From Clostridiales bacterium (GTDB taxonomy: Bacteria > Bacillota > Clostridia > Christensenellales > CAG-314): a stretch of DNA of 64,000 nucleotides. Position numbers and translations under genes: made by a program. The DNA is taken from NCBI GenBank assembly GCA_022508375.1, contig JAFLVJ010000008.1, positions 1 through 64,000 of the forward strand, read 5' to 3'. How positions within the stretch are numbered: the stretch's first letter is position 1; every line of letters begins with the position of its first letter. Below, in pieces: positions 42,068 through 48,906 of this stretch. The notes beneath the pieces are model-generated. The model was not told the origin of the DNA and did no database searches. It worked only from the letters and a program-made list of their open reading frames with translations.

Positions 42068-42181
42068 ATGAAAAAATGGGTTTGCACAGTGTGCGGTTAC
42101 ATTCACGAAGGCGATGAAGCGCCCGAAGTTTGCCCTCTTTGCGGAGTGGGAGCAGAGGATTTCCAAGAAGTAGAAGAATAG
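42068..42181 (+). CDS. Rubredoxin-like protein, 37 residues
   Basis: A small iron-sulfur electron carrier. It reads MKKWVCTVCGYIHEG and later CPLCGVG: four cysteines as CxxC near residues 6-9 and 22-25, spaced like the rubredoxin domain of rubrerythrins and shorter than free rubredoxins (about 52-54 residues). AAGGAG lies 11 bases ahead. It precedes the reverse rubrerythrin gene by 103 bases and resembles that protein's N-terminal domain, so it may pass electrons to it or be a duplicated domain. Confidence 0.88.
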   Translation: MKKWVCTVCGYIHEGDEAPEVCPLCGVGAEDFQEVEE

Positions 42182-42284: not shown

Positions 42285-42827
42285 ATGAAATTTGTATGTT
42301 CAGTATGCGGATATGTTCACGAAGGAAACGAAGCTCCGGATAAATGCCCTCAATGCAAGGCTCCCAAGGCTAAATTTGTTTCTCAGGCTGAGGAAATGAG
42401 TTGGGCGGCAGAGCACGTTGTTGGCGTTGCAAAGGGCGTTCCCCAAGATATCATTGACGACCTTAGAATGAACTTCAACGGCGAATGCAGCGAAGTTGGT
42501 ATGTATCTTGCTATGGCTCGCGTTGCTTTCCGCGAGGGTTATCCCGAAATCGGTCTGTATTGGGAAAAGGCTGCTTATGAAGAAGCAGAACATGCAGCTA
42601 AGTTTGCCGAATTGCTTGGTGAAGTAGTAACAGACAGCACCGCCAAGAATCTTCAAATGCGTATCGAAGCGGAAAACGGTGCAACAATGGGCAAAACACA
42701 ACTTGCTAAGCGCGCTAAAGAGCTTAACTTGGACGCAATACACGACACCGTACACGAAATGGCTCGCGACGAAGCCCGTCACGGCAAGGCTTTTTTAGGG
42801 TTGTATAATAGATACTTCAAAAAGTGA
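42285..42827 (+). CDS. Reverse rubrerythrin, with a 3' end supplied by an inserted element
   Basis: A non-heme di-iron peroxidase that removes hydrogen peroxide. 180 residues. The rubredoxin domain ([10 protein letters not shown]...CPQCKAPK, residues 4-27) comes first and the ferritin-like domain second, the domain order of Clostridium reverse rubrerythrins. Di-iron ligands are visible in GECSE, EEAEH and DEARH. From 42742 onward the coding sequence lies inside a 5-kb integrative element and includes the last iron motif. The host's own last 28 codons remain at 47694-47779. The join leaves the protein complete, differing only by Leu for Gln in [12 protein letters not shown]. Last codons are more AT-rich than the rest. 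Confidence 0.93.
42742..42763 (+). repeat. Left attachment core (attL)
   Basis: ACGACACCGTACACGAAATG plus GC: 22 bases identical to 47694-47715. After it both sequences stay related but differ at third codon positions. Confidence 0.8.
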
Positions 42828-42853
42828 TTCAATACATAATTTGAATAGTGCAG

Positions 42854-42883
42854 GGGAGTAGGCTCAGTTGCTTACTCCCTTTG
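42854..42883 (+). terminator. Terminator after the rebuilt rubrerythrin gene
   Basis: GGGAGTA (42854-42860) / TACTCCC (42873-42879) followed by TTTG. It belongs to the element. Confidence 0.65.
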
Positions 42884-42893
42884 TTGTTGGAAT

Positions 42894-42960
42894 AAAAGTG
42901 GAAAGTTGTTAATCTACTTTACTGAATTTGCCCCAAAAGTGGAAATTGAAAAAGTGGAGA
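42894..42960 (+). repeat. Left-end repeats, candidate integrase arm sites
   Basis: AAAAGTGGAAAGT at 42894-42906 is identical to 47579-47591 near the right end. A related AAAAGTGGAAAT lies at 42935-42946. GAAATTGAAAAAGT at 42942-42955 occurs inverted at 47546-47559. Confidence 0.55.
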
Positions 42961-43107
42961 GTGGTTGTAAGCAATTCTTTGGTTGCTTAGCAAGGTTTTT
43001 TGCCTTGCGGTGGTGGTCTGATAGAATAGTTGACTAAAAGTTGTTTGTTCATATTTTTCCTCCTGTTTTGTAATAAAAAAGACAGCTAATTTTGCTGTCT
43101 TATACGG

Positions 43108-44223
43108 TTAGTTTATCTCTATAATTTGCTTTGCAAGTTCGTTTCTTATACTAAAATAGCAATCTTTTATTTCTTGCTGGCTTATCATTATATTTCCTGT
43201 TTCTTTCCTGATTTTGTCGCCGATTGCTTTAATAATATCATTCTTTCGCTCTTTATAATTATGTCCTCTAAAAGTGCTATGAGTGTTTGCTGTGTCAAAC
43301 TCATATTTATTTTTTGCAGGTAATTGAGCTAATACCTTTTGATTAACTGCTAATCTTTTTTCTTTTATAATCTTTTGAATTTCAGTTGCATTCATTCCAC
43401 CAAAGATATTGCTATATTCTTCCTCTATATCGTTAATTAACGCTATTCTATAATTAGAATATAGATATTCAAAACCCTCTGCTATAAGTTGCTTGTTTAC
43501 TTGTTCCTTAAAATAATCAAACCCATATTCTTCAACAAAAGCGTGTTCAGAGGCGCAATTATTCGATTCTAATATGTCTTTTTTAACATCTTGGATAATA
43601 TCTTCTTCTGCAACGTTTGCAGGCAGGTGTTGATTTGAGGGCGTGTCAAGGTAATGAATCATTGAACATTTGGAATGTTCAATTTTTCCCTTTTTTGCCA
43701 AATAATCTAATCCACGCTTAAAGCCTTGATGAACAATTTCAAAAATACTACTTTGTAATTCATTGTAAATGGCTTCTTCAAGTTCATCGAGGTCTTCGGG
43801 CTTATAAAACCAATCATTGGTTAGTCCAAATACATTAAAGAATGAATATCTACTACCAAGAATAACATTATAAAGTATAGTAAAATTTGAATTGAGTTTG
43901 CCAGTGAGTAGTGCAACAATAATACAATAGAAAGTATCGGCGTAAACTGAGGGATAATTCCTTGTCTGTTTTTCGAGTTCCTTTGGCTCATCATATATTT
44001 CTCTGATTTCAAAGGTATAGGTGTTGCCCTTATAACCACAATCGCAATATCGTCCTAACTCGTTTATAATGGCAGTCTTTGAGTCGTGTGAGGCTTTACT
44101 ATAATCCAATTCTAATATTGAACATATTTCACCAAATTTGTATTCTTTAATGCCATTGTTAAAATTATTTTTTAAAATGCAGAAATTTTTCTCGATATTC
44201 TCTCTTTTATCAGCTTTTACCAT
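43108..44223 (-). CDS. Element protein of unknown function, 371 residues
   Basis: The largest cargo gene. AT-rich, with an AAGGAG ribosome site ahead of the ATG at 44223. The protein is soluble and mostly helical, rich in Lys, Glu, Asn and Ile. Its N-terminal 60 residues (MVKADKRENIEKNF...FGEICSILELDYSKA) could be a winged-helix-like start. No nuclease, helicase, kinase or Rep motif is visible. A row of TTAGGAT-like boxes lies right upstream and could be bound by this protein. A regulator or replication-type role is possible but unproven. Confidence 0.65.
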   Translation of the reverse strand: MVKADKRENIEKNFCILKNNFNNGIKEYKFGEICSILELDYSKASHDSKTAIINELGRYCDCGYKGNTYTFEIREIYDEPKELEKQTRNYPSVYADTFYCIIVALLTGKLNSNFTILYNVILGSRYSFFNVFGLTNDWFYKPEDLDELEEAIYNELQSSIFEIVHQGFKRGLDYLAKKGKIEHSKCSMIHYLDTPSNQHLPANVAEEDIIQDVKKDILESNNCASEHAFVEEYGFDYFKEQVNKQLIAEGFEYLYSNYRIALINDIEEEYSNIFGGMNATEIQKIIKEKRLAVNQKVLAQLPAKNKYEFDTANTHSTFRGHNYKERKNDIIKAIGDKIRKETGNIMISQQEIKDCYFSIRNELAKQIIEIN

Positions 44224-44246
44224 TTTTTAATTCTCCTTTTATTCAA

Positions 44247-44375
44247 TTTAGGATAAATTGCACGATTATACCATAGAATAGGATATTAGTTATATGCCAA
44301 TTTTAGGATGAATTAGATGAAATTAACAACATAATACATTATTAAATAATATAACGTACAAAATATCCTAAAATT
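44247..44375. repeat. Array of four TTTAGGATA-like boxes
   Basis: TTTAGGATAAATT (44247-44259), ATAGGATATT (44278-44287), TTTTAGGATGAATT (44301-44314) and, inverted, AATATCCTAAAATT (44362-44375). They cover the promoter side of the 371-residue gene, as operators or replication iterons do. Confidence 0.6.
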
Positions 44376-44778
44376 ATCATATCATAGAATCCCCCTCTTG
44401 TCAAGTTTTCAAACAGTTTGTTTTTGCTGAGTGAAAAGGCGCTGTTCGCTTCGCTCACCGCTACACCGCTACGCTGCCATTACATATCGCAAGTGCTAAC
44501 GCACTTCGACATCAAGCCTTTAAGCCCATAGTGTAATTTACATTTTCGTCATTATAGAAAATTGCATTATATGCCGTATTTAACCGTCCAAAGACTTAAC
44601 CCATTTTTCTACTTTTGGTGGTGTAGAGAGCTATTTCGAGGCTCAAATGCGGTAATAGGTGGTAGTTGTCCAGAGACTTATGTCATTTTTCGAAAAATTG
44701 GTTTTATTGTCCGTGCCATAGTCTTACGAAAAATGACAAGCTGTTTACAGCTTGGCGTTTTTCGCCTTTCTCCAAACC
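44376..44778. other. Noncoding part of the element with hairpins and repeats
   Basis: No credible gene. It holds small hairpins (AAGTGC-TAAC-GCACTT near 44491-44506). A direct repeat pair AGACTTAacCCATTTTTC (near 44592) and AGACTTATGTCATTTTTC (near 44674) is present. A 12-bp inverted repeat TGTCATTTTTCG (44681-44692) / CGAAAAATGACA (44727-44738) is followed by CAAGCTG-TTTA-CAGCTTG and a GGCG-TTTTT-CGCC hairpin. It could be an origin or a double terminator. Confidence 0.4.
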
Positions 44779-44808
44779 TTGACAAGTGAATTGAAATTAT
44801 GCTAAAAT
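44779..44808 (+). promoter_or_regulatory. Promoter of the structured RNA
   Basis: Perfect TTGACA at 44779-44784 and TAAAAT at 44803-44808 with an 18-base spacer. It predicts a start at about 44814-44816, right at the first base of the RNA's closing stem. Confidence 0.7.
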
Positions 44809-44814
44809 CTTAAT

Positions 44815-44947
44815 GCTACACAGTTTAATAATCAAAACACGGAGTACCATAGCCAATTAGTACTTCCTTAATTCTCGTGTTTTGAGAGCTGTGTAGCAAC
44901 TGCGGAAAGTGCTATTGGAGTGCGTTCTGCAAGGGGCGCACTTTTTT
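44815..44947 (+). ncRNA. Candidate structured RNA of about 133 nt
   Basis: Starts at the predicted transcription start. A long arm is closed by GCTACACAG (44815-44823) / CTGTGTAGC (44889-44897), continued by CAAAACACG (44833-44841) / CGTGTTTTG (44876-44884) and AGTAC (44843-44847) / GTACT (44860-44864). A terminator AGTGCG (44919-44924) / CGCACT (44937-44942) with six T ends it. GGGGC (44933-44937) could instead pair with GCCCC (44951-44955), an antiterminator-like alternative. It may be a free regulatory RNA or an attenuator of the two genes that follow at 45015. Confidence 0.6.
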
Positions 44948-45014
44948 ATTGCCCCAAAGAATTATGGAATTAACGCTTTTGCGCTAATGATAAATTATTT
45001 GGGAGGATTTACAG

Positions 45015-45440
45015 ATGTTTAAAAGAAATGACAAGGCACTACTGACATCAAGAATAATCATAATGGTGACTATCGGAATAATTGCAGTTCTGTCGCTTGT
45101 TGCTGGGATTCTGCTTGCAGTAGACAACGAATCGGGCGTGTATATTTTAGTTACCTTTGCTGGTTGGTTTTTATGTTGGATAATGTGGGTTTTTGCAAGG
45201 CTCTATTTGTCTTATCTCGTTGATATAAAGCTGATTCGCAACAAGCTTTATGGGGAAAATAAAGACGTTTTAGACGTGTTTTTAAAGGCTAAGGAAGAGA
45301 GAAGTAATAGCCCTGTAATGCAAGAGAACAAGCAAATGGTTAACGCCGAAATAGAGCATTTGCAACAGCTTTTACACTCGGGCGTAATAACTCTTGAAGA
45401 ATATGAAAATCGCAAAGAAGAATTGACAAAGGGGAATTAA
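45015..45440 (+). CDS. SHOCT-domain membrane protein
   Basis: 141 residues, ribosome site GGGAGG. Two membrane helices (about residues 13-35 and 43-68) and a C-terminal SHOCT motif (IEHLQQLLHSGVITLEEYENRKEELTKGN), a short helical hairpin common at the ends of small membrane proteins of mobile elements. SHOCT units are thought to mediate assembly. The next gene starts three bases after the stop, so both form one operon, placed behind the structured RNA and its terminator. Confidence 0.8.
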   Translation: MFKRNDKALLTSRIIIMVTIGIIAVLSLVAGILLAVDNESGVYILVTFAGWFLCWIMWVFARLYLSYLVDIKLIRNKLYGENKDVLDVFLKAKEERSNSPVMQENKQMVNAEIEHLQQLLHSGVITLEEYENRKEELTKGN

Positions 45441-45443
45441 ATT

Positions 45444-46031
45444 ATGACTAAAAAAATTCAAGATGAGATAATTTCATCTCAAAATATTCTTTTCCCTGTG
45501 AATGTTGCAAAGTGGGAAATCTATAAGGTAAAAGACCTTGACAAATACTATGCAAAGGTTTATTTTCGGAAGACTGACAATTCTGTTAAAGAGTTCTCAA
45601 TAGACATCGATTGTTACTCTGAATCGGGTGAAAAGATTGACGTCCAATCGAATATCAGTATAACGGATATTAATGAAAAAGCTGATGAGTTTTTTAAGAT
45701 TATTCCGTTAAATGGGAAAGTCGAACAACTAAATATAAGCATTGTAAAATGTACGGCAGACGCTCCTAAAACGCAAAATAAACTTGTAAAAGGAATAGGC
45801 GTGTATGAACTTATTACATATATCATCTCAGCCATAACGGTGCTGTTTTATGTGTTTGTAACGCCATTTTGGAATGGAATTGTATCAATCTTATTGCTAA
45901 TGGTTTTATCAGCCTGTGCCGTTGGACTATTGATTTATTTGCTAATTAAGAAAAAGCTGAATTGCATTATGCAAATTCTTCTATCGGTTATGGCTGTATT
46001 GTTTATACTTTCATTAAGAACAGTAATTTAA
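45444..46031 (+). CDS. Membrane protein of unknown function, 195 residues
   Basis: An N-terminal soluble domain of about 120 residues (beta-rich, KVYFRKTDNSVKEFSIDIDCYSES) is followed by two or three closely spaced membrane helices (about residues 128-190). No catalytic motif. It is co-transcribed with the SHOCT gene three bases upstream. Such pairs of small membrane proteins in mobile elements are sometimes exclusion or immunity functions, but nothing here proves it. Confidence 0.72.
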   Translation: MTKKIQDEIISSQNILFPVNVAKWEIYKVKDLDKYYAKVYFRKTDNSVKEFSIDIDCYSESGEKIDVQSNISITDINEKADEFFKIIPLNGKVEQLNISIVKCTADAPKTQNKLVKGIGVYELITYIISAITVLFYVFVTPFWNGIVSILLLMVLSACAVGLLIYLLIKKKLNCIMQILLSVMAVLFILSLRTVI

Positions 46032-46064
46032 ATACGCCGAAGAATAGTAAAGCATAAAACGAGA

Positions 46065-46092
46065 GGCTGTCGCATTGAGCGATAGCCCCTTA
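46065..46092. terminator. Terminator between the membrane-protein operon and the microproteins
   Basis: GGCTGTCGC (46065-46073) / GCGATAGCC (46079-46087), followed by CCTTATTG. Only weakly T-rich, but the stem is perfect apart from one G-T pair. Confidence 0.65.
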
Positions 46093-46100
46093 TTGTTTGA

Positions 46101-46166
46101 TTAAATGTGTATATCGTGTATAGCCAAAAAGAATAGAATAAGTAAACTAATTATTCCGAAAATCAT
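46101..46166 (-). CDS. Membrane microprotein, 21 residues
   Basis: A 22-codon frame, MIFGIISLLILFFLAIHDIHI, starting at 46166 behind a perfect ribosome site AGGAGG with 7-base spacing. It is almost wholly hydrophobic, long enough for one membrane span, with a short polar end. It lies 15 bases after a similar frame and downstream in the same direction. The strength of the two ribosome sites argues that these are translated. A type I toxin-like or regulatory membrane peptide is possible. Confidence 0.55.
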   Translation of the reverse strand: MIFGIISLLILFFLAIHDIHI

Positions 46167-46181
46167 AATTGCCTCCTATTG

Positions 46182-46250
46182 TTAGTGATAATTTTTAATA
46201 ACCCAAATGATTGCATAAATGCCTGCAATCCATAAAAGTAAAAACATCAT
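46182..46250 (-). CDS. Membrane microprotein, 22 residues
   Basis: Frame MMFLLLWIAGIYAIIWVIKN-YH starting at 46250, with AAGGAG 7 bases ahead. One hydrophobic span with aromatic residues and a positive C-terminal end. It precedes the 21-residue frame by 15 bases on the same strand, and follows the integrase gene (stop at 46300) by 49 bases, so all three may be one transcript. Confidence 0.55.
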   Translation of the reverse strand: MMFLLLWIAGIYAIIWVIKNYH

Positions 46251-46299
46251 ATTGTTACTCCTTGAATAAAAATAGTATTTTATTGACTTTCAAATGCGG

Positions 46300-47514
46300 T
46301 CATAAGTTGTCGATTTTGTCTTTAAGTAGTTCTATACCGCTTTTAGATACAGCAAGATAGTATTGTTCTGTTACCTTTCCGCTACCGTGCCCCATTTGGT
46401 TACATAGCAGATGTGTAGGCGTGTTAAGTTCTGCAAGTCGTGTGCCGTAGGTATGACGTAGCCAATGGTATTTAAAGCTGATTCCCAATGTCCTCTTGAT
46501 TTCCCTTGCGTGGTACTTCATAGAGTTTACGGTCTGAATTTTGCCGTTAGGGAGTGTATTAACAAGAATGGTGCAAGAGGCTAAATTGCCGTTGGTATTC
46601 ACTATCATTGTTTGGTTTTGTAGCCTTTGGGCGGTAAGTGTTTTTTCTGCCTGTTGGTACTGCTCGTAGGCTTTGAGTAGATACTCTTTCAGCTTGTCGC
46701 ACATATAAATTGTGCGCTTTGCGTTGCGTGTTTTGAGCGGTACTAACTTGATTAAGCCCTCTTGATATTGCATTTGCCTTTCTACTCTGATACAGCTGTT
46801 CTCAAAGTCTAAATCCGCCCATTTCAGCCCGTAGCACTCGTTTATACGGAGTCCACAGTATCTGCCAAGCATATAAGCCGTTTCCGCATTAGTGCCCTTG
46901 AAATAGCCGTCAAGGCGTTGTAATTCGTCTTGACTGAATACCACAATATCGGTATCTTCGTCAATCTTCATCTTAGGCATAGTTATTCTTGTGTTCTTGT
47001 TTACGCACAGGGTATTGTAGATTTCAATATCAAGATAATTTCTTGAATAAGCCTGTCCGAATATCAAATAGAACATTTTTAAGAATCCCTCAACATACTT
47101 GTAGGCTCTGCCCTCGTCATAGTAGAGGTAGGCAAGATAATCGTTTACTTCCGATACGCTAATGTCGTCTATGTAGCGTTTCCCGAATTTGTTTTCAATG
47201 TGGTTGCGCCATAGGCTGTCTTGCTTTCTGATAGTGGCGTAGGCTTTGCCTGTTCTGCCTGTCTGACAGTATTCCTTATAGACTTCCTTAACGGTCATAC
47301 GGGGCTTTTCAGACCTTTTGTAGAGGTTGCTATATTCTAACCTGATAGCCATTTCTCTTGCCTTGATTGCGCTGTTAGTCGTTTTGAGTGGTTGCCCGAA
47401 TTCGTCTTTTGTTCTTTTAATGTCTGTTTTCTTTCCATTGATGTTAATGGATATTCTGAATCCCCAATTTCCGTTGGGTAGTTGGTAAATGCCTTTTTTA
47501 CTGTTTTTTGTCAT
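46300..47514 (-). CDS. int: Tyrosine recombinase (integrase) of the element
   Basis: Catalyses site-specific insertion at the rubrerythrin 3' end. 404 residues from the ATG at 47514, behind GGAGGT; a start five codons earlier has no ribosome site. An N-terminal arm-binding domain (YQLPNGNWGFRISI, about 8-60), a SAM-like core-binding domain (about 75-175) and the catalytic domain (about 195-400). It has Arg in RYCGLRINE, a Lys in the beta-hairpin, HWLRHTYGT, a GHGSGK box and the nucleophile in TEQYYL. All six active-site positions appear intact. The gene sits 180 bases from the right attachment core, as is usual for Tn916-type integrases. Confidence 0.95.
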   Translation of the reverse strand: MTKNSKKGIYQLPNGNWGFRISININGKKTDIKRTKDEFGQPLKTTNSAIKAREMAIRLEYSNLYKRSEKPRMTVKEVYKEYCQTGRTGKAYATIRKQDSLWRNHIENKFGKRYIDDISVSEVNDYLAYLYYDEGRAYKYVEGFLKMFYLIFGQAYSRNYLDIEIYNTLCVNKNTRITMPKMKIDEDTDIVVFSQDELQRLDGYFKGTNAETAYMLGRYCGLRINECYGLKWADLDFENSCIRVERQMQYQEGLIKLVPLKTRNAKRTIYMCDKLKEYLLKAYEQYQQAEKTLTAQRLQNQTMIVNTNGNLASCTILVNTLPNGKIQTVNSMKYHAREIKRTLGISFKYHWLRHTYGTRLAELNTPTHLLCNQMGHGSGKVTEQYYLAVSKSGIELLKDKIDNL

Positions 47515-47545
47515 AAAAATGACCTCCAAAGTGTGATTTTAGTGG

Positions 47546-47591
47546 ACTTTTTCAATTTCTCTAATTTGACAAATGCGGAAAAGTGGAAAGT
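47546..47591 (+). repeat. Right-end repeats, candidate integrase arm sites
   Basis: ACTTTTTCAATTTC (47546-47559) is the inverse of 42942-42955, and AAAAGTGGAAAGT (47579-47591) equals 42894-42906. Confidence 0.55.
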
Positions 47592-47612
47592 AACTTTCTC
47601 GTAAAATACGAA

Positions 47613-47649
47613 AAAACAAGGCAAAATCAATGATTTTACCCTGTTTATA
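47613..47649. terminator. Hairpin between integrase and right end
   Basis: AAACAAGGCAAAATC (from 47613) pairs with GATTTTACCCTGTTT (to about 47646), with one mismatch. It may shield the integrase gene from chromosomal transcripts. Confidence 0.55.
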
Positions 47650-47693
47650 GGCTGTTTTTATTAAATTTTAACGACTTTCATTCCATAGGCTAA

Positions 47694-47779
47694 ACGACAC
47701 CGTACACGAAATGGCGCGCGACGAAGCTCGTCACGGCAAGGCTTTCCAAGGTTTGTACAATCGCTATTTCAAGAAGTAA
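47694..47779 (+). pseudogene. Displaced 3' end of the host rubrerythrin gene, with the right attachment core (attR)
   Basis: It starts with the 22-bp core (47694-47715) and continues in frame as [17 protein letters not shown], then [10 protein letters not shown], then TAA. It has no start. It matches the rebuilt end at 42742-42827 except for synonymous changes and Gln for Leu. Its codons resemble the host gene more, so this is the ancestral end pushed away by the insertion. Confidence 0.85.
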
Positions 47780-47904
47780 TTTGAGCCGATTATATACTAC
47801 GGTATGCTTTGTTCTGCTTCGTTTTTGCTCAGTCATTTACGTTTAGTAAACTCCTTCGCAAAATCCTAGCACGCCTCGCCTACCTTGCATCTAATCGCCT
47901 CAAA
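47780..47904 (+). repeat. Dispersed 3'-end repeat, copy B
   Basis: 125 bp with inverted ends: TTTGAGCCGATTA at the left and TAATCGCCTCAAA (47892-47904) at the right. It contains GGTATGCTTTGTTCTGCTTC and GCTCAGTCATTTACGTTTAG. It begins at the base after the old rubrerythrin stop. Confidence 0.8.
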
Positions 47905-47930
47905 TCTTCGATTAAATTACAATAATTCAT

Positions 47931-48093: not shown

Positions 48094-48906
48094 ATGAAAA
48101 GTCTTCCTGTTTTGCATAAAAAAGAAAACACTCGCAAGCTCAAGTTTAAGCTTGGTTTAGCGCTTTCCGGTGGTGGAACGCGCGGATTTGCGCATATCGG
48201 AGTATTGAAAGCCTTCGAGGAGGAGCGTATTGCTTTCGATTGCGTTGCGGGGACAAGCATAGGCAGTCTTATCGGCGCACTGTACTGCGCAAATGTCAGC
48301 GTGGAGCAAATGATCGATCAAGCCAAGCGCGTAACACGCAAGGATGTTGTTAACCGTTTTTGGATCAATTCCAATTCGGCAAATATTGCTAACTTAGCCA
48401 ACAGATTGCTACATGATATGACCTTTAACGAGCTTACTACGCCATTTTCTGCCGTTGCGGTGGATCTTGTGGACGGTCAGGAAGTTGTGCTAAACGGTGG
48501 AGTCGTGGCTCAGGCGGTATCCGCATCGTGCGCGGTACCTGCGTTGTTCAAGCCCGTGGAAATGAACGGTATGATGCTTGTGGATGGCGGATTGCTCAAC
48601 AACATGCCTGCGGACGTATGCCGAACCATGGGCGCGGAGATTGTTATCGGCGTGGATCTTAATCATCACCGCGGAGAGGGTACAACTTCGAAAAAACTTG
48701 CCAACACTCTCCTTGCCTGTTGGCAGATTGTGTCCAAGTCCACTATGTATAAGGGATTGCATAATAGCGACGTGGTAATCGAGCCGGAACTTAAAGAGTT
48801 TGCTCGCACAAGCCTCAGTAATATTGACGAAATGGTTGAGGAGGGCTACCGTGCGGCTAAGGATAAAATGGCAGAAATAAAGGATTTACTTTGTATAAAA
48901 GATTGA
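48094..48906 (+). CDS. Patatin-like phospholipase, NTE/RssA family
   Basis: A serine hydrolase that probably cleaves phospholipid acyl chains. 270 residues. The oxyanion hole GGGTRG (about residues 27-32), nucleophile elbow GTSIGS (about 54-59) and catalytic DGGLLN (about 166-171) form the Ser-Asp dyad of patatins in the right order. No signal peptide, so it acts in the cytoplasm or on the inner membrane face. Ribosome site GAGG. The next gene starts 16 bases after its stop and may be co-transcribed. Confidence 0.92.
   Translation: MKSLPVLHKKENTRKLKFKLGLALSGGGTRGFAHIGVLKAFEEERIAFDCVAGTSIGSLIGALYCANVSVEQMIDQAKRVTRKDVVNRFWINSNSANIANLANRLLHDMTFNELTTPFSAVAVDLVDGQEVVLNGGVVAQAVSASCAVPALFKPVEMNGMMLVDGGLLNNMPADVCRTMGAEIVIGVDLNHHRGEGTTSKKLANTLLACWQIVSKSTMYKGLHNSDVVIEPELKEFARTSLSNIDEMVEEGYRAAKDKMAEIKDLLCIKD

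Follow-up and report, generated by a model that had tools for sequence, protein, structure and literature searches.

A rubrerythrin gene of a Clostridiales bacterium (NCBI GenBank assembly GCA_022508375.1, contig JAFLVJ010000008.1, positions 1 to 64,000; this whole stretch of 64,000 nucleotides is referred to as the window) has its 3' end twice, with the second copy 4,952 bp downstream of the first. What lies between the two ends, and which of them belonged to the gene originally? We consider it very probable that a small site-specific integrative element has entered the gene, with a tyrosine integrase that uses the rubrerythrin 3' coding end as its target and an attachment site (attP) that includes a copy of this tail.

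The gene (42285..42827, plus strand) encodes an N-terminal rubredoxin domain (RUBY_RBDX at residues 3-31) followed by the Rubrerythrin domain (60-114), an arrangement called reverse rubrerythrin; the enzyme serves in the defence against oxygen and peroxide. Inside the gene, between the two copies of its 3' end, sits an AT-rich insertion of 4.9 kb, with a GC content of 0.354 compared to 0.462 and 0.457 in the flanks. The copies form direct repeats of 91 nt (42739-42829 and 47691-47781) that are 86% identical and share an exact stretch of 22 bp (42742-42763 and 47694-47715, both on the plus strand). The first-pass annotation had singled out this stretch as a core within the rubrerythrin frame, and the repeat comparison confirms it at both positions. 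An exact 22-bp repeat within a coding repeat of this length and identity, 5 kb away, can hardly be a chance match. Blocks of 11 bp (42765-42775) and 17 bp (42777-42793) are identical as well, so that the 22-bp block is not the sole candidate core.

Other early observations also hold. Both copies stay in the rubrerythrin frame up to a stop codon, TGA (42825-42827) on the left and TAA (47777-47779) on the right, and with differing codons they encode protein ends that are one residue apart. The left tail is AT-rich and the right one host-like (GC 0.378 versus 0.467, third-position GC 0.467 versus 0.60), which at 45 nt each is weak evidence. The right copy is followed directly by a host dispersed repeat of approximately 145 bp, the 'repeat B' of the first-pass annotation (47780..47925, plus strand), for which the scored candidates include 17 further matches elsewhere in the genome; none was found in the same-genus loci tested. 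This dispersed repeat can fold on itself.

Within the insertion lies a gene for a tyrosine integrase of 404 aa (46300..47514, minus strand), a member of the Phage_integrase family in Pfam (4.1e-17; SAM_3 1.2e-6), which reads away from the right-hand repeat. On the mechanism that we propose, the integrase would recognise the conserved rubrerythrin 3' coding end, and attP would recombine with the host site (attB), strand exchange most likely taking place at, or immediately beside, the GAR-GC bases within the D-E-A-R-H-G codons. At the left junction (attL), the 5' part of the gene would be joined in frame to the tail carried by the element, so that rubrerythrin remains an intact reading frame; at the right junction (attR), the old tail would be left beyond the integrase. 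The likeliest crossover zones are the codons for D162-E163-A164-R165-H166-G167 at attL (GAC GAA GCC CGT CAC GGC, 42768..42785, plus strand) and their counterpart at attR (GAC GAA GCT CGT CAC GGC, 47720..47737, plus strand). The present gene would thus probably be a chimera of a host 5' part and an element-supplied 3' end (42777..42827, plus strand), and the original end would be the displaced copy at 47729..47779 (plus strand). The element would presumably be able to excise as well. A tRNA gene was rejected as the integration target: tRNA genes occur in the window only at 620-1148.

Empty sites and a family-wide target

If the gene has been interrupted, relatives should possess an empty site. 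The rubrerythrin gene is present in 23 of 24 other genomes of the genus, and only one of these (G024) is occupied, by an insert without a detectable integrase of this family that shares two open reading frames (ORF141 and ORF195, see below) and the left arm of the displaced copy with the window. In 11 of the 22 unoccupied loci, a patatin gene starts 125-382 nt after the rubrerythrin stop, and in one more it does so at 912 nt; in the other 10 it is absent within the 1.3-1.5 kb fetched. In the window, the same gene, encoding a patatin-like phospholipase (48094..48906, plus strand; identified by profile match and genus comparison), starts approximately 315 nt after the stop of the displaced copy. 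The predicted empty site is therefore found at the level of the genus rather than within one species, the nearest same-genus relative with an empty site being approximately 87% identical in the rubrerythrin gene. Together with the repeats and the integrase inside the insert, these sites support the claim that an element entered the gene. As for the further claim that the original end was displaced by approximately 5 kb, empty-site relatives do join such an end to the patatin gene, and the origins of the two tails are a matter of inference, to which we return below.

Is this target peculiar to one genome? We collected 20 integrase relatives from GTDB species genomes, with hosts including Lachnospiraceae, Oscillospiraceae and Eubacterium. 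At a threshold of E 1e-60, and in samples that overlap and count the genomes on which they are centred, relatives occur in 5 of 391 genomes of the class and 2 of 41 of the family, and in 2/70, 2/16 and 11/397 genomes of further samples. Without exception, the 34 distinct integrase loci examined are found at a rubrerythrin gene or tail, and this holds even for three whose integrases are only 32-38% identical to that of the window; a terminal integrase fragment at a contig edge (L058), the 23% viral match mentioned below (L071) and two duplicates (L133 and L135) were left out of this set. In 27 of the 34, a displaced tail precedes the integrase start by 10-275 bp, on the opposite strand. At three loci (L056, L057 and L124) a full-length rubrerythrin gene lies upstream of the integrase on the same strand, and in one (L125) the integrase is part of an array of tails, the nearest approximately 2 kb away. 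The association is not perfect: in the remaining three loci (L052, L148 and L149) no tail adjoins the integrase, and the full-length gene lies 1.5-5 kb beyond its other end, and a 65-residue fragment of the family (L158) has no rubrerythrin tail in 3 kb. In L056, L057 and L124, the integrase is on the attL side and points in the same direction as the full-length gene, the reverse of the arrangement seen elsewhere.

Around four other integrases encoded in the genomes examined (L159-L162), no rubrerythrin tail lies within approximately 1.5 kb, and the surroundings give only weak matches (E 0.025 or more) to other parts of rubrerythrin. In a phylogenetic tree, 31 rows of the family fall on one side of a supported branch and three of L159-L162 on the other; the long branches of L124 and L151 cannot be placed with confidence. 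Thus, the search for integrase homologues at the same site, as the first-pass annotation had suggested, shows that the rubrerythrin target is a trait of this integrase family.

One could also imagine a partial gene duplication by ordinary recombination, with no integrative element at all, and some sites indeed retain only a short integrase-less insert and a partial 3' copy (in G557, the tails are approximately 0.4 kb apart). The position of the displaced copy beside an integrase in 27 of 34 loci, the empty sites and the recurrent insertions in several clostridial families make such a duplication extremely improbable.

The insertions can also be approached from the side of the target gene. Two more occupied loci (L130 and L194) were found in this way, and a second partial 3' end near the gene, as a DNA match, is present in 13 of 159 genomes with the gene: 3/44 (G000, G024 and G052), 2/17, 4/35 (G510, G552, G557 and G549) and 4/63 (G514, G1014, G1008 and G981) by sample, with samples centred on occupied genomes and diverged tails missed. 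Ten integrase-bearing genomes each contain one close full-length rubrerythrin copy, some with more distant or partial matches in addition, and the full-length genes have no internal stops. Locus L196 (G988:C30) has two full-length copies approximately 3.2 kb apart, and in G549:C26 (L129) and G571:C20 (L132) rubrerythrin-like tails are on a different contig from the full gene. Across 15 loci, integrase identity hardly tracks rubrerythrin identity (Spearman 0.16); the integrases of the window and L039, for example, are 86% identical and the rubrerythrins 61%. This suggests that the elements have been transferred between hosts.

Position of the crossover and origin of the tails

The first-pass annotation took the 22-bp block as the point of entry, and from this concluded that the last 28 codons, with all of the DEARH motif, had been replaced. 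The DEARH stretch aligns with an ExxH of the solved rubrerythrin 9fj2, residues that act as iron ligands. To locate the exchange, we compared the 19 attL/attR pairs for which both copies were found by motif, numbering positions from the initial base of the D-E-A-R-H-G codons, as well as 32 displaced copies. GARGC is present in all 32 because the search motif itself contains it, and this set omits L048, L056, L146 and L147, in which similarity extends further left, together with tails too altered for the motif.

That the crossover lies in the 22-bp block appears unlikely. The block is the longest identical run in the window, and similarity starts at -14 (at GARATGGC) in 11 of the 32 displaced copies and further left (-26 to -19) in 10. 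In six copies, it starts at -11 to -2. However, in five (L042, L070, L090 and two tails of L125) it starts only at +2/+3, to the right of the block, and two further L125 tails outside the 32 have the same +3 junction. The 22-bp repeat is therefore probably not the crossover, but homology of an integrase arm or flank. In the genus of L045, the attL copy has the majority host allele at all four mismatches that separate the 22-bp zone from GAAGC, again placing the exchange to the right of the block. Change-point analysis with the nearest relative agrees, disfavouring the block relative to the best point by likelihood values of 3.2 (window), 8.0 (L045) and 3.2 (L053). With the block probably not the crossover, the replacement of 28 codons including the whole motif is not supported as described.

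Where, then, does the exchange take place? In 17 of the 19 pairs, positions 3-7 (GARGC) fall within identical blocks of at least 7 bp, a value that is the highest along the repeat together with that of positions 45-46 (also 17 of 19). Locus L053 has no identical block beyond position 17, and exchange there should thus have occurred at or left of this position. With the nearest relative only, the window switches between positions 9 and 26. The most economical reading of these alignments is strand exchange in GARGC or just right of it, corresponding to 42771-42785 in the window. The element would then more likely supply approximately the last 15-17 codons (about residues 164/165-180, from the Ala/Arg codon on), and of the ligands His166 would probably be provided by the element while Glu163 stays host-coded. 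In the element arm of attR in L043-L047, L050, L053, L122, L123 and L150, we observed a small hairpin with differing stems directly left of GARATGGC; such a hairpin is visible in approximately ten of 25 arms, with a z of -2 or below versus shuffles in 6 of 25.

The two tails themselves look like gene ends. All 19 attL ends are in frame to a stop, and attL and attR tails differ by 64 synonymous and 18 nonsynonymous codons, with 20, 11 and 78 mismatches at codon positions 1, 2 and 3, respectively. A frame kept to the stop and mostly synonymous differences indicate that both copies derive from working genes. As to which is native, L053 is informative: its displaced tail encodes VALKGLLERYFK, as do the relatives L164, L165 and L166 (12/12 residues), and its full gene now ends in RALEGLLKRYFG, unlike these relatives. 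For the window, its nearest relative (G023) agrees with the displaced copy at positions 26-28, 38, 42 and 58. These data suggest that the left tail came with the element.

Several observations weigh against this assignment. G023 has the left-copy alleles of the window at positions 47, 53 and 62, and leucine, as in the left tail, is also the most frequent native residue among unoccupied loci of the genus (15 of 22). The change-point tests place the crossover to the right of the 22-bp block but set no bound on its other side; when eight relatives are pooled, the preferred point is x=48-51, in which case the left tail would be host-derived, and for L053 the signals are contradictory. The displaced tail of L053 is AT-rich in its codons, unlike its relatives, and its left tail has a host-like GC; the displaced tail of L051 looks foreign. 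In L146, no difference separates the two tails from position 27 through and past the stop, and in L144 they are nearly identical there. Finally, the similarity of left tails is not clearly correlated with that of the integrases (partial Mantel 0.08, p 0.29), so there is no clear sign of tails travelling with their integrases. How far right the crossover may extend and where the left tail came from are therefore less certain than the presence of the element.

Some of these points would be expected if the gene were native up to its stop, with the crossover near the stop and the displaced copy being the element's mimic of a gene end: the far-right switch in the pooled analysis, left tails that are about as host-like as right tails, and the compositions of the L051 and L053 tails. 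By contrast, neither the window nor L053 has an identical block of at least 6 bp near the stop, the nearest relative alone places the switch in the window well before it, and the native protein end in L053 is that of the displaced tail and not of the left tail. A native left tail is, in our view, distinctly improbable. We prefer an element-borne left tail that, given the lack of a tie to integrase similarity, would have been exchanged or converted after arrival, either by repeats recombining with or converting each other or by repeated integration and loss. L144 and L146 have a patch of approximately 30 bp around the core with mostly synonymous attL/attR differences, perhaps left behind when an element integrated and was lost again through exchanges at different points.

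Genes of the elements and arrays of tails

Elements with both ends and an integrase measure 3.3-8.7 kb, and the integrase-less element of G024 measures 2.7 kb. The element at L050, from the named strain Oribacterium sp. P6A1, has both ends and an integrase gene free of stops. Besides the integrase, the element in the window has three open reading frames (ORFs), none of which has a solid family in Pfam, NCBIfam and further profile scans. The 371-aa ORF (43108..44223, minus strand) is a possible regulator with a very weak HTH-WYL match; it has no Pfam family above the cut-off and no NCBIfam or PHROG family, and a distant relative is present in L039 (27% over 252 residues). Just upstream of it, at 44247-44382, are operator-like TAGGAT/ATCCTA inverted repeats. 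The 141-aa ORF (45015..45440, plus strand) has a SHOCT-like C-terminus just below the Pfam cut-off and, like the 195-aa ORF (45444..46031, plus strand), has relatives in the elements of L039 and G024. No RNA family was detected up to E 0.1. On the host side, a rubredoxin-like ORF of 37 aa precedes the rubrerythrin gene (42068..42181, plus strand; RUBY_RBDX E 4.6e-18), with a rubredoxin-like match also upstream in 23 of 23 other same-genus loci. At 15 of 20 loci, the rubrerythrin gene is preceded by related ORFs of approximately 120-290 aa, and the four upstream ORFs scanned (two from this set and two from other loci) all belong to the FUR family.

In other elements, similar serine recombinases of 202 aa lie near attL, opposite the integrase end (L044, L045, L047, L050 and L053); the one scanned, from L045, matches Resolvase (E 3.8e-31), and related proteins are present in L048 and L049. 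Replication-initiator-like proteins (L044 and L194), a WYL regulator (L049) and an HNH nuclease (L048) were found as well. None of the four ORFs of the window element matches a conjugation family in Pfam or NCBIfam. Among the element ORFs scanned, which are part of the total, we saw neither a relaxase nor a conjugation gene and recognised no phage structural gene; oriT was not looked for. Searches of viral contigs with the single protein returned no close relative of the integrase and an alignment search gave one at 23%; the 324 records matched in a phage collection were all below 60% identity, as was every match in a plasmid collection (21.9-25.6% among the 20 matches listed for the two).

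Some sites hold more than one extra tail. In G1014 (L193, G1014:C98, 1872-3990), rubrerythrin is followed by three further tails 0.55-0.75 kb apart, and each interval contains a peptide gene whose product combines a leader-like part, closed by a double glycine (VSGG, VSGG and VAGG), with a core that differs from one interval to the next. From these features, the peptides may be bacteriocin-like precursors, a label that no Pfam or NCBIfam profile confirms; a Nif11-like label was dropped since neither database confirmed it. In G316 (L125, G316:C8, 136-6232), four rubrerythrin tails surround a decayed integrase, and three of them share the arm CAAGTCCCATTGT directly before GAAGC. Short integrase-less inserts at rubrerythrin tails were also found in G552, G557, G549, G052 and G981.

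How did these arrays arise? Accretion of decayed elements could explain most of them. A more speculative option, which we put forward tentatively and regard as possible rather than probable, is that different elements use the rubrerythrin 3' end as a common docking site, at which integrases also act in trans on small integrase-less tail cassettes, build integron-like arrays and repeatedly rewrite the C-terminus of a diiron enzyme of peroxide defence. If this is true, the three precursor cassettes of G1014 and the four tails of G316 would be products of integrase action in trans, and such arrays could show small peptide genes spreading without a recombinase of their own.

Relation to known systems

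Chromosomal integrons gather small cassettes in a row at one site. The arrays described here resemble them in this respect only: the sites are rubrerythrin tails, and the window integrase is not an IntI by NCBIfam, scoring 27.6 of 265 bits against the integron model TIGR02249, far below the cut-off (attC sites were not searched). Also comparable are the CIMEs, integrase-less segments that keep their att sites and stack at one site, as characterised in PMC5704250. G024, G1014 and G316 may be set beside them; unlike in CIMEs, the att sites are tails of an enzyme gene, and G1014 stacks three cassettes of 0.55-0.75 kb with bacteriocin-like precursors.

The first-pass annotation considered the reuse of a redox enzyme's coding 3' end with metal ligands to be much less common than integration at tRNA 3' ends. 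For elements of this kind, protein-gene 3' ends as such are common targets. According to PMC4701971 and PMC5704250, integrative and conjugative elements (ICEs) and integrative and mobilisable elements (IMEs) with tyrosine integrases insert at the 3' ends of guaA, rpsI, rplL, rpmG, lysS and trmE, and 30 of 73 streptococcal tyrosine-integrase ICEs use the 3' end of a protein gene (PMC4701971). They share with the elements described here the tyrosine integrase and the direct repeats, through which a conserved protein gene regains its 3' end; in contrast to them, the window element yielded neither a relaxase nor a conjugation gene. What is unusual is the target. The word rubrerythrin is absent from the main text of both papers, the available parts of PMC5025042 and PMC9674144 do not name it as a target, and PMC7760498, PMC4886054 and PMC11204068 deal, by title and the start of the abstract, with other subjects. 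We found no description of rubrerythrin as an integration target in the open literature, most subscription journals being outside the search.

The rubrerythrin target recurs across families of anaerobic gut and rumen Clostridia, and short elements and remnants can be delimited from the tail of the enzyme gene. Moreover, this seems to be a case of a mobile element rewriting a redox enzyme's end just where a metal-ligand motif is encoded, and the effect of element-borne tails on peroxide reduction is directly testable.

A close parallel is prophage e14 (with others of its kind) in icd of Escherichia coli, which brings a replacement 3' end of 54 codons with 12 nucleotide changes and two conservative residue changes (PMC11148124). 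As here, insertion is in the coding frame of a metabolic enzyme, and the element carries a replacement end and displaces the old one. The rubrerythrin elements differ from e14 in gene, hosts and element, in their size of 3.3-8.7 kb with no recognisable phage structural genes among those scanned, and in their shorter tail. Replacement of a coding end is thus a known strategy, for which the rubrerythrin 3' end is apparently a new integration target.

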